From: a virus
IMG/VR virus record: IMGVR_UViG_3300036770_007848
Coordinates: 1 to 27,028 of that record
Direction: 5' to 3' (one strand)
Length of the DNA: 27,028 bases
Shown here: positions 19,509-22,309 of the stretch, piece by piece
Position numbering within the stretch: the stretch's first letter is position 1
Layout: each line of letters opens with the position of its first letter
The notes under the pieces: generated by a model
The model's database searches: none
The model's input: the letters and a program-made list of their open reading frames with translations, nothing else
What the model was told of the DNA's origin: nothing
Program-made: the position numbers and the translations under genes

Positions 19509-19809
19509 CCCAGCCCAAGCCGCCGTCGTCGCGCTGATGAGCGCCTCCATCGGCGTGCGCGCCGCGCAACTGAGCCTGATGACGCTCGACCTCGCCAAAG
19601 TCGGCGGGACCTTCGCCTTCCTCGATGGCAACACCAGCGAGGACGGCAAGCAAAGCTCCGTCGTCATGGTGATCGCCGGGCCGATTCCGAAGGACCTGCT
19701 CGACGGGCTCGGCAACTACTGCAAGGGCCTGCTCCAGGACCTCAAGAGCGGCGGCAACTTCACCGAAATCTTCGACAGCACGCGGGAAGAACCGCCCCAA
19801 CCCGAATGA
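19489..19809 (+). CDS. Hypothetical protein
   Basis: 106 residues. Hydrophobic helix AAVVALMSASIGVRAAQLSL, then KQSSVVMVIAGPIPKDLLDG and LGNYCKGLLQDLKSG. The first helix is long enough to sit in a membrane but contains Arg and Gln, so a soluble helical bundle is more likely. No family known. ATG 19489 is inside the previous gene; the stop overlaps the next ATG. Confidence 0.7.
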   Translation: MPGKPIDPAQAAVVALMSASIGVRAAQLSLMTLDLAKVGGTFAFLDGNTSEDGKQSSVVMVIAGPIPKDLLDGLGNYCKGLLQDLKSGGNFTEIFDSTREEPPQPE

Positions 19810-20057
19810 GCACCGACGCCACCTACGTGATCGAAAACGGCACCGTTGTCGGCCTGGCCGGCGGACCGTTGAGCCTGGCCGACATGGGCGAGCGCCGAAC
19901 GCGGCGCGCGTCGCATCTGATCTTCGAGCCGTCCACAAACCTGTGGCTCGTGCGCGACGCGGCGAGCGACGAAATCATCTATAGCAACGCCGACTACGAT
20001 GTGGCGTTGCAGTGGGAAGCGACCCACTACAACCGCCTGCTGGCGGGAGAGATTTAG
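19806..20057 (+). CDS. Conserved small phage protein
   Basis: 83 residues: TYVIENGTVVGLAGGPLSLA, RRTRRASHLIFEPSTNLWLV, then ASDEIIYSNADYDVALQWEA and THYNRLL. The RRASH(V/L) motif with a following W-x-VRD strand and a closing AL.WE...Y helix is frequent in phages; function unknown. Last gene of this coupled run, followed by the tRNA-like gene 6 bases on. Confidence 0.8.
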   Translation: MSTDATYVIENGTVVGLAGGPLSLADMGERRTRRASHLIFEPSTNLWLVRDAASDEIIYSNADYDVALQWEATHYNRLLAGEI

Positions 20058-20063
20058 CGAAAT

Positions 20064-20179
20064 CGGCCCGTGGCGTAACGGGGAATGAATACCCGGCAAC
20101 CCTTGGAAACGAGGGTTTGCGGGCAGCGTCCGGCCGCACGTCGGCCGGGGTGCAGGTTCGAATCCTGCCGGGCCGGCCA
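20064..20179 (+). tRNA. Atypical tRNA-like gene with long variable arm and encoded CCA
   Basis: Acceptor CGGCCCG (20064-20070) pairs 7/7 with CGGGCCG (20169-20175); G20176 is the discriminator and CCA (20177-20179) is encoded. The T arm is perfect: GCAGG, TTCGAAT, CCTGC (20152-20168). T and G fill positions 8-9. A D-arm reading GCGT-AACGGGGA-ATGA (20073-20088) keeps the AA...GG loop but has only three pairs. A 7-bp variable stem CCGGCCG/CGGCCGG (20130-20148) marks a class II tRNA. The anticodon region is abnormal: instead of 5 bp plus 7 bases, an extended hairpin of bulged pairs spans about 20092-20123, closed by AACCCT/AGGGTT with the 8-base loop TGGAAACG. The loop contains TTGGAAA as in Ser(GGA) tRNAs. 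It may be a divergent serine tRNA, a degenerate gene or a tRNA mimic. Overall length is 116 bases. Confidence 0.6.
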
Positions 20180-20189
20180 CCTTTAGACT

Positions 20190-20735
20190 ATGAAACCTGT
20201 TCCTTTGTCGCACCTGCGCCAGCGCATCGAGCTAATGCCTCGCATGCTCTTGGAGTCGCTCGCGTTTAATGTCGTGTATCTGCTCTACCACGTGCCGGCC
20301 GATCTCGACACGGGCGAGCCGGGTGGTCTCGACCAAGACAAGGAGTGGTCGGGCGACACGCTCGAGCTGGTCGCAGACCACGTAGAGGCTGCGGGGCTGC
20401 ACCCCAGTCAACTCCCAACACCGCCGGCTCCGAGTCCGTCCGCGACCGAGGTCTCCAAACCGATCCCCAAGGCCCTGTATGATTTCGGCGAGGCCGTCGC
20501 CGACCTCACCCACAACTTCTCCTTCGCCGAATTCCTGCCGGAGGACTCCCGCGAGTTTACCCGGCTCTGCGTCGAGTGGGCGTCCGAATTCGAGGTCAAG
20601 CACGCCGGCCGCGTCTGGGACGGCGAGTATATCGAGGAGATCGACGCTTTTTTCACCGCCAAATACGCCGAATGGTTCGCCACCCCCGGCCAACCCAGGC
20701 GGCGCAACCACAAGCTGCCCACCAAATCCAAATGA
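20190..20735 (+). CDS. Hypothetical protein upstream of the AAA+ ATPase
   Basis: 181 residues. N-terminal helical half (MLLESLAFNVVYLLYHVPAD and TLELVADHVEAAGL), a proline-rich linker (TPPAPSPSATEVSKP), and a C-terminal acidic helical half (NFSFAEFLPEDSREFTRLCV, YIEEIDAFFTAKYAEWF) ending in a basic tail. No family recognised. Its stop overlaps the ATPase ATG (ATGA), so it is a candidate partner or adaptor of the ATPase. It begins 10 bases after the tRNA-like gene. Confidence 0.78.
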   Translation: MKPVPLSHLRQRIELMPRMLLESLAFNVVYLLYHVPADLDTGEPGGLDQDKEWSGDTLELVADHVEAAGLHPSQLPTPPAPSPSATEVSKPIPKALYDFGEAVADLTHNFSFAEFLPEDSREFTRLCVEWASEFEVKHAGRVWDGEYIEEIDAFFTAKYAEWFATPGQPRRRNHKLPTKSK

Positions 20736-22309
20736 AAGATCGCATCGCCAACTACATCCGAGCCGGTTACCCCGGTCTCTATATCACTTCCCACGAGGAG
20801 CAACGCGTCGAGGCCGTGATGCGTGAGGCCGTCGTCGAGGTGAACAAGAAGCACAACGACCGCCCGTTCGTCCTCCATCTGTGGAGCTGCACCGAGGGCC
20901 TGATCGAGGTCGGCCCCGACGCCGAGCACGACCGTTCCGGCCCCAAGCTCCAGGAGCCGATGGAAATGCTCGAGGCCTTCTACAAGGCCCCGCAGAAGAC
21001 GATCTACCTGATCCGCGATTTCCATCTCTTCCTCGAGGACCGGAACGCGATGGTCTGGCGGAAATTCAAGGACGCCCTGTTGCAGGGCAAGGCCAACAAC
21101 AAGGCGCTCGTGATCCTCGGCTGCCGCTTCACCGTGCCGCCCGAGCTGGAACGCGAAATCGCCGTGATCGAGTTCAGTCTGCCCGACCGCGAGCAACTGC
21201 GCGAGGTGCTGCATGGCCTGCTCCAGGCCAACGGCAAGGACGTCTCTAGTCTCGACGGCGACGAGGTCGGAATCCTCTCCGCGGCCGGCGGGCTGACGAC
21301 GACCGAGGCCGAGAATGCGTTCGCCCTCTCCGTGGTGGAGCGCGGCAAGATCTGCCGCGAGATCGTGTTTCGCGAAAAGTGCCAGGCCGTGAAGAAAAAC
21401 GGCCTCCTCGAGGTCGTCGACTCCCACGTGACGCTCGCCGACATCGGCGGCCTCGATGCCCTGAAGAAATGGCTCCTGGAGCGGCGCGACGCCTTCAGCG
21501 ACGAGGCCAAATCCTACGGCCTGCCCACGCCCCGCGGCTTCCTCGCGGTCGGCAATCCGGGCACCGGCAAGACGCTCACCGCGAAAGCCTGCCGCAGCGT
21601 GTTCGACGTGCCGCTGCTGCGGCTCGATGCCGCGAAACTCTTCGGCTCGCTCGTCGGCCAGACCGAGAGCAACTGGCGCAGCGTGCATGCGACCGCGAAG
21701 GCGATGGCGCCCTGCATTCTGCACATCGACGAGGTCGACGGCGCGATGAGCGGCGGATCCTCGTCCGGGTCCACGGATGGCGGCACCACGAGCCGCGTCA
21801 TCAAGAGCATCCTCCAGGACATGCAGGACAACAGCGAGGGGATCTTCTACGTGCTCACGGCGAACGACGTGGACAACCTGCCCTCGCCCCTCCTGCGGCG
21901 CATGGACGAGGTCTGGAACGTGGAGCTGCCGAACGAGAACGAGCGGCTGGCCGTCTGGACGATCCAGATCCGCAAAGCCCGCCGCGATCCGCGTAAGTTC
22001 GACCTGCCGAAGCTCGTCAAGGCCTCGGAGGGCTACAGCGGCGCCGAGATCGAGAAGCTCGTGGCGCAGTCGCTCTACACGGCGTTTGCCGACAGCCATC
22101 GCGAGCCCACGACGGGGGACATGCTCGGGCTCATGGAGACGTTCATGCCGATGTCGAAGACGATGGCCGCCGACATCGCCCGCCGCACCGAGCGCCTGAA
22201 GGGCGTGGCGAAACTCGCGAGCGGCGTCGCCGCCGCGGGCAACCCGGACAACCGGGCGCCGATGGCCCCGAAGGGCACCCGCAAAATTAGCTTCACCAAG
22301 GCGGCGTGA
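20732..22309 (+). CDS. Ycf46-like AAA+ ATPase
   Basis: 525 residues. The N-terminal part (about 1-215) is a degenerate RecA-like domain: AGYPGLYITSHEEQRVEAVM, TIYLIRDFHLFLED, ALVILGCRFTVPPELEREIA. The C-terminal part is an active AAA+ module: DIGGLDALKKWL at 237-248, Walker A GNPGTGKT at 274-281, GQTESNWR at 309-316, Walker B CILHIDEVD at 328-336, sensor 1 TAND at 376-379, arginine-finger region LLRRMDEVW at 387-395, and the helical lid EGYSGAEIEKLV. This two-part layout is that of plastid and cyanobacterial Ycf46. The protein probably forms a hexamer and remodels an unknown partner using ATP. Ycf35 and DUF2997 genes lie upstream. Confidence 0.92.
   Translation: MKDRIANYIRAGYPGLYITSHEEQRVEAVMREAVVEVNKKHNDRPFVLHLWSCTEGLIEVGPDAEHDRSGPKLQEPMEMLEAFYKAPQKTIYLIRDFHLFLEDRNAMVWRKFKDALLQGKANNKALVILGCRFTVPPELEREIAVIEFSLPDREQLREVLHGLLQANGKDVSSLDGDEVGILSAAGGLTTTEAENAFALSVVERGKICREIVFREKCQAVKKNGLLEVVDSHVTLADIGGLDALKKWLLERRDAFSDEAKSYGLPTPRGFLAVGNPGTGKTLTAKACRSVFDVPLLRLDAAKLFGSLVGQTESNWRSVHATAKAMAPCILHIDEVDGAMSGGSSSGSTDGGTTSRVIKSILQDMQDNSEGIFYVLTANDVDNLPSPLLRRMDEVWNVELPNENERLAVWTIQIRKARRDPRKFDLPKLVKASEGYSGAEIEKLVAQSLYTAFADSHREPTTGDMLGLMETFMPMSKTMAADIARRTERLKGVAKLASGVAAAGNPDNRAPMAPKGTRKISFTKAA

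Follow-up and report, generated by a model that had tools for sequence, protein, structure and literature searches.

A putative non-decoding tRNA-like RNA encoded by a phage, and enlarged tRNA-like genes in other phages

The DNA analyzed here (the window) comprises the 27,028 bases of IMG/VR virus record IMGVR_UViG_3300036770_007848 and carries a 116-nucleotide (nt) tRNA-like gene. We put at about 0.5 the probability that this gene encodes a non-decoding phage RNA, i.e., a natural tRNA scaffold that likely occupies a host tRNA-binding protein or presents hairpins. Such an RNA would be a tRNA body that keeps the features seen by maturation enzymes while decoding is abandoned. The anatomy of the element, its non-chance nature, the lack of a canonical tRNA product on excision, and the recurrence of its architecture are established; its function is not. 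The wider comparison, with RNA rnaC of phage T4 as an expressed member and two recurrent enlarged forms in other phages, is of higher interest than the single element.

The gene occupies positions 20064 to 20179 on the plus strand (as do all window features below), including the encoded CCA, as indicated by the Rfam tRNA model RF00005, the predicted fold, and a scan for tRNA shells. The acceptor stem is formed by CGGCCCG (20064 to 20070) and CGGGCCG (20169 to 20175) through 7/7 Watson-Crick pairs and is followed by the discriminator G73 (20176) and CCA (20177 to 20179). The T arm, GCAGG-TTCGAAT-CCTGC (20152 to 20168), has a 5/5 stem, evident from the sequence and the Rfam alignment. A long variable-arm hairpin, UCCGGCCG-CACGU-CGGCCGGG (20129 to 20149), has six strict pairs (CCGGCC/GGCCGG), seven if a flanking U-G is counted, and eight in the minimum-energy fold. 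Sequence, Rfam, and fold thus confirm the acceptor, CCA, consensus T arm, and variable stem described in an earlier note on this DNA, including, with the U-G pair, the seven base pairs claimed for the variable stem. The RNA exceeds a class II tRNA by about 20 to 25 nt.

The D-arm region, TGGCGTAACGGGGAATGAATACCCG (20071 to 20095), has U8, A14, A15, and GG in place. Two pairings compete for it: a CGGG/CCCG hairpin within the region (20079 to 20095) in the minimum-energy fold and, in the Rfam alignment, a stem of GCGU with a later GCGU, which encloses a large D loop with 44 inserted nt. The D arm, first described as having a G-A mismatch, is weak, and the pairing of this region is ambiguous between these alternatives.

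In place of the anticodon arm there is a rod (20096 to 20120), GCAACCCUUG-GAAA-CGAGGGUUUGC, of 10 bp with one bulged U and a GAAA cap at 20106 to 20109. The apical pairing in the ensemble is CCCUUG-GAAA-CGAGGG, a GNRA-capped helix whose six pairs have probabilities of 0.996 to 1.0. The extended, bulged hairpin previously reported is accordingly present, but the 8-base loop said to hold TTGGAAA is not: six pairs, AACCCT/AGGGTT, leave TGGAAACG, which pairs on up to the GAAA cap. The Ser-like letters UUGGAAA are thus part paired and part tetraloop.

The resemblance of TTGGAAA to a Ser(GGA) loop might suggest a working tRNA, one that decodes with an unusual arm or from which an internal piece is removed to yield a normal tRNA-Ser, -Pro, or -Arg. 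The Rfam alignment also lends itself to this reading, since it takes the variable hairpin as an anticodon arm of 6 bp and a 7-nt loop with ACG at the anticodon position, and class I phage tRNAs with removable-looking inserts do exist (see below). However, the GGA lies inside the GAAA-capped helix, and the alternative loop, GCACGUC, has C33 and U37 and is hence without U33 and a purine at 37. Neither of the two modeled readings holds a usable anticodon. The 5-bp anticodon stem and 7-nt loop with U33 and purine 37 of an elongator tRNA are missing; of the tRNA-Ser features, the long variable arm and G73 are present and a serine anticodon in an open loop is absent, so that the noncanonical serine tRNA proposed earlier finds no support as a decoding molecule. 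An exhaustive search for single internal excisions gave no canonical tRNA (0 solutions, with a strict or a relaxed D stem), making a decoding or intron-bearing tRNA unlikely and giving no support to the proposal of a tRNA in need of processing. Inspection by eye revealed no bulge-helix-bulge motif, and a group I intron would require a longer insert. Taken together, a working tRNA appears very improbable, and the best fit among the three options of the earlier note is a tRNA mimic with a T arm and CCA end.

RF00005 matched 20064 to 20176 with 31.6 bits (gathering threshold, 29), the E-value being 0.0048 against all Rfam and 1.1e-6 with the record searched for tRNA alone. The Rfam check suggested earlier was therefore positive for tRNA and negative for tmRNA; neither Rfam nor ARAGORN gave a tmRNA match, and the element has no tag reading frame. 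ARAGORN reported no tRNA at this site, indicating that tRNA gene finders miss such genes; they could otherwise report them as odd tRNAs. The folding energy was mildly below that of shuffled sequences (z −1.75, 12/200) and, taken alone, is unremarkable given the G+C content of the RNA.

A simplified shell scan, defined by a 5/5 T stem, a TTCRANY loop, a 7/7 acceptor, U8, and CCA, matched once in the window but never in simulated windows from a second-order Markov model (0/300). This excludes chance for practical purposes and bears out the earlier view that the shell is hard to explain as a coincidence. It is common for a phage attachment (att) site to contain the 3′ half of a tRNA, as in Mycobacterium phage Dori beside its integrase, and an att remnant would be the other trivial origin for a tRNA-like end. 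Against this, and in line with the argument made at the outset, the complementary 5′ acceptor strand is complete and the scanned proteins encoded nearby included no recognized integrase, in place of the 3′ half beside an integrase that characterizes such remnants. An origin by chance similarity or from an att site is thus extremely doubtful.

The proteins recognized in the window include a lambda-type portal protein, terminase gpA, an AAA ATPase, an HNH nuclease, and an ATP-dependent DNA ligase. The tRNA-like gene fills 116 of the 132 nt separating two co-directional genes. The upstream gene (19806 to 20057; 83 amino acids [aa]) is conserved in L003 and L004 (tblastn, 56% and 52% identity) and stops 6 nt 5′ of the RNA, and the downstream gene (20190 to 20735; 181 aa), with a relative at the corresponding place in L004 (tblastn, 42% over 90 aa), starts 11 nt past the CCA. 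Next comes the AAA ATPase gene (20732 to 22309; Pfam AAA, 1.2e-24), which marks the RNA slot in relatives. Its product is about 63% identical in both L003 and L004, the nearest relatives of the window; a genome scan with this protein returned no relative. L003 and L004 both retain the upstream gene, and the RNA in their gap differs from that of the window. The L004 gap contains a three-hairpin RNA ending in CUCC-ACCA (L004:5129-5214; z −2.6), a 13-bp hairpin (L004:5478-5532; z −3.2), and a tRNA-Cys-like gene, and the L003 gap contains a 13-bp hairpin (L003:5917-5988; z −4.0). In both relatives, then, strongly folded RNAs, each of them different, occupy the stretch that precedes the AAA ATPase gene, and this gap is a slot for structured RNA.

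Such a location would also suit a cis-acting processing signal, i.e., a tRNA-like fold that punctuates the operon, with RNase P and 3′ processing separating the 19806-20057 mRNA from the 20190-22309 mRNA or protecting the new ends. Consistent with this, the element takes up the space between the genes, no promoter or terminator match was found at or near it, and the corresponding gap in L003 and L004 has strong RNA structures of other kinds. However, the other enlarged shells described below sit in tRNA arrays or elsewhere rather than at one conserved gene junction, and a rod, a variable arm, and a CCA would be superfluous for simple punctuation. We consider a mere processing signal unlikely.

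No homologue of the window RNA was found, including in the gap of L003 and L004, and the rod gave no match in an exact-pattern search of IMG/VR; there is consequently no covariation that tests the rod. A further possibility is therefore to be weighed, namely, a Ser-, Pro-, or Arg-like tRNA of the phage that recent insertions into its D and anticodon regions have disrupted and that is now decaying. The weak D arm and the lack of a homologue to show selection would be in keeping with such a pseudogene, as would the best matches of the T-arm/acceptor portion, which are phage tRNA-Pro and tRNA-Arg. The identity signals are also mixed: C1-G72 is a feature of bacterial tRNA-Pro, and the long variable arm with G73, one of tRNA-Ser. 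Because there is no RNA relative to show compensatory change and the folding energy is unremarkable (z −1.75), a recent pseudogene has to be kept in mind, if as a rather unlikely case. It is at odds with an acceptor stem (7/7) and a T stem (5/5) free of mismatches, with added parts that are perfect hairpins, one of them GNRA capped, and with the recurrence of enlarged shells in many phages, some of them without ordinary tRNA genes.

That recurrence was documented by pattern scans of IMG/VR. The Leu-type pattern (a Leu-type D arm, a 62- to 122-nt gap, and a T arm) returned at least 120 stretches (L065-L184). Among the matches listed, the acceptor was paired 7/7 in 91 of 123 and 6/7 in 9 more, giving at least 96 distinct sequences after removal of one tandem pair, with the window element counted among them. 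The acceptor AGTCAGG is common to 53 of 99 of the matches listed, most of which share TGGCGGAATTGGTAGACGC and ACAGGTTCGAATCCTGT, while the middles, of 51 to 109 nt, form 80 sequence clusters from 95 sequences, again among the matches listed. To judge from these sequences, the Leu-type class is a near-constant shell around a hypervariable cargo. The window RNA stands apart from this constant shell, having CGGCCCG/TGGCGTAACGGGG/GCAGGTTCGAATCCTGC and not AGTCAGG/TGGCGGAATTGGTAGACGC/ACAGGTTCGAATCCTGT.

Single excision yielded a canonical tRNA from none of the 93 Leu-type elements evaluated among the matches listed. There was no signal of an anticodon-stem helix at the start of the cargo (53/95 versus 51.7 in shuffled sequences), and cargo antisense to its own locus was about as frequent as expected by chance (5/70). 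Rfam recognized the enlarged Leu-type elements as tRNA only. In 3 of 25 records searched there was no tRNA match whatsoever at an E-value of 0.01, indicating that the elements are more than tRNA-array members that have been spoiled. Within cargo clusters the changes look compensatory by eye, as in L111/L176 (TTTTACAA..TTGTAAAA versus CCCTATG..CATAGGG) and L116/L134 (GTGT/ACAC versus GCGT/ACGC). Some of the cargo clusters look pseudoknotted. The AGTCAGG shell was found on contigs of Sediminibacterium, Flavobacterium, and Chitinophagaceae metagenome bins and of one Neisseriaceae bin; the phages with such elements (L065-L184; L185-L188) are apparently those of Bacteroidota.

Ser-type shells were likewise in excess, with 21 found versus 2.9 expected from permuted acceptor pairing, and none of 22 elements gave a canonical tRNA by single excision. 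Several of them (L384, L389, L394, L406, L411, and L414) have the shell GGAAGGT-TGGCCGAGTGG and variable middles of about 50 nt, with little sequence in common between subgroups; this shell would, on present sequences, be another constant-shell family. An unrelated phage, G001, reached via a weak protein match, has four enlarged tRNA-like genes, of 85, 106, 143, and 177 nt, besides normal tRNAs in its one record (L062 [G001:60300-61200] and L061). L158 is a GC-rich enlarged shell with an encoded CCA and a hairpin insert in the D loop, and is the nearest look-alike of the window D region. A scan with the closest shell type (TGGCGTAA..., encoded CCA) gave 75 stretches that were nearly all tandem pairs of ordinary tRNAs with 1 to 5 of 7 acceptor pairs, the only non-tandem 7/7 shells being L104, L197, L205, and L247.

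A different kind of enlargement emerged from a scan with a generic class I D-arm pattern, from which tandem pairs were excluded. It gave 63 distinct non-tandem 7/7 shells versus 1.1 expected from permuted acceptors, and removal of one insert from the anticodon stem restored a canonical tRNA in 26 of 65 sequences (shuffled mean, 0.5; maximum, 3). The inserts are mostly 40 to 60 nt long and lie in the 5′ strand of the anticodon stem, and many share a hairpin followed by ACWGCAA (ACAGCAA or ACTGCAA). None of the known intron and ribozyme families gave a match to them, and phage tRNA-Asn genes match one insert-bearing gene in its 3′ half. By their sequence features, the class I inserts look intron-like. 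Insert-bearing genes for tRNA-Asn, -Ile, -Thr, -Gly, and others were seen in L333, L301, L257, L264, L271, L288, L295, L321, L330, L343, L350, L351, and L363, and likewise, with a GTTACT-type end, in L259, L282, L292, and L375. The window RNA falls with the anticodon-less kind of enlargement and not with the insert-bearing kind.

An expressed counterpart is provided by T4 rnaC (species 1 RNA), a 139-nt RNA of unknown function (PMC3014915) that is made late and has been validated by Northern blotting (PMC9697503). Its gene lies at L417:1409-1547 on the minus strand, with relatives in L418, L419, and L420, and rnaC matches 718 phage records. When folded, T4 rnaC shows the T arm of a tRNA and a variable hairpin of 9 bp, and its acceptor, CGAUUCG/CGUUUCG, contains two U-U mismatches. 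Yersinia phage TG1 has a fully paired acceptor (CGGUCCG/CGGACUG), and A-U is replaced by G-C in the acceptor of both Enterobacter phage myPSH1140 and Citrobacter phage NM4.3; in the NM4.3 copy the shell is retained and the center is largely different. Over the acceptor, variable, and T stems of four phages, 90.5% of cells were paired, and eight pairs had changed on both sides versus a shuffled mean of 3.0 (0/500), with every slid control failing.

Like the window RNA, T4 rnaC is phage encoded and combines an acceptor and T arm with a long variable hairpin and a long hairpin replacing the anticodon arm, with no usable anticodon. Unlike the window RNA, it sits in a tRNA cluster, has no encoded CCA, carries the acceptor U-U mismatches, and has a different center, and an nhmmer search with rnaC gave no window match at an E-value of 1 or better. 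The two RNAs have a common plan, which is not to say that they have been shown to be one family. The comparison places species 1 RNA in a recurrent phage architecture of constant shell plus variable cargo that can be tested in a laboratory phage. It also opens a comparative approach to function, as many phages, apparently including T4, carry RNAs of such a build. In the literature searched, enlarged tRNA-like genes of phages are nowhere described as a class; the early T4 RNA sequencing work, which lies outside that literature, may already have remarked on the tRNA likeness of rnaC.

Several known systems share parts of this build. With class II elongator tRNAs (RF00005, Ser/Leu) the window RNA has in common the acceptor, T arm, long variable arm, CCA, and elbow nucleotides, but it differs in lacking an anticodon arm and anticodon, in its 116-nt length, in its weak D arm, and in being missed by ARAGORN. 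The tRNA-like domain of tmRNA likewise gives a longer RNA the end of a tRNA but no anticodon; in contrast to tmRNA, the window RNA is far shorter, retains the D-arm letters, and has neither a tag frame nor an Rfam tmRNA match. Engineered tRNA scaffolds similarly display RNA hairpins on a tRNA body, and proteins can sequester such aptamer-tagged tRNAs, but these are man-made, carry the aptamer on the variable arm, and still decode (PMC7590224). Phage tRNA genes can act against tRNA-cutting defenses by escaping anticodon nucleases; those tRNAs, however, keep a working anticodon with point changes, whereas the window RNA has none (PMC10264068, PMC11555353).

For the non-decoding scaffold that we favor, we infer expression, maturation, and target as follows. 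Because it fills the gap between co-directional genes without a promoter match of its own, the RNA is probably released from a longer transcript. Here RNase P would cut at C1 and host 3′-end nucleases would trim to the encoded CCA, as the intact acceptor/T half suggests. As the ends of a tRNA and its elbow nucleotides (U8, A14, A15, GG, and the UUCRA loop) are retained, the body should be stable and should be recognized by proteins that grip the acceptor, elbow, or variable arm of tRNAs. With a GNRA-capped rod for an anticodon arm, the sequence and fold predict that it would read no codon and offer no target to anticodon nucleases. Its most likely action would be that of a decoy or competitor at a host tRNA-binding protein, against a tRNA-directed defense or a synthetase; alternatively, the rod and variable hairpin may be displayed on a nuclease-resistant body. 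More speculatively, and with low confidence, phages as a group may keep tRNA-scaffold RNAs in which host maturation enzymes recognize a conserved shell and a fast-evolving hairpin or pseudoknot cargo blocks tRNA-targeting defenses or other host RNA-binding factors, the window RNA, T4 rnaC, and the constant-shell class then being one functional kind.

Separately, an unannotated ordinary tRNA-Arg(TCT) gene was observed in Bordetella phage IFTN6 (L416:206-282).
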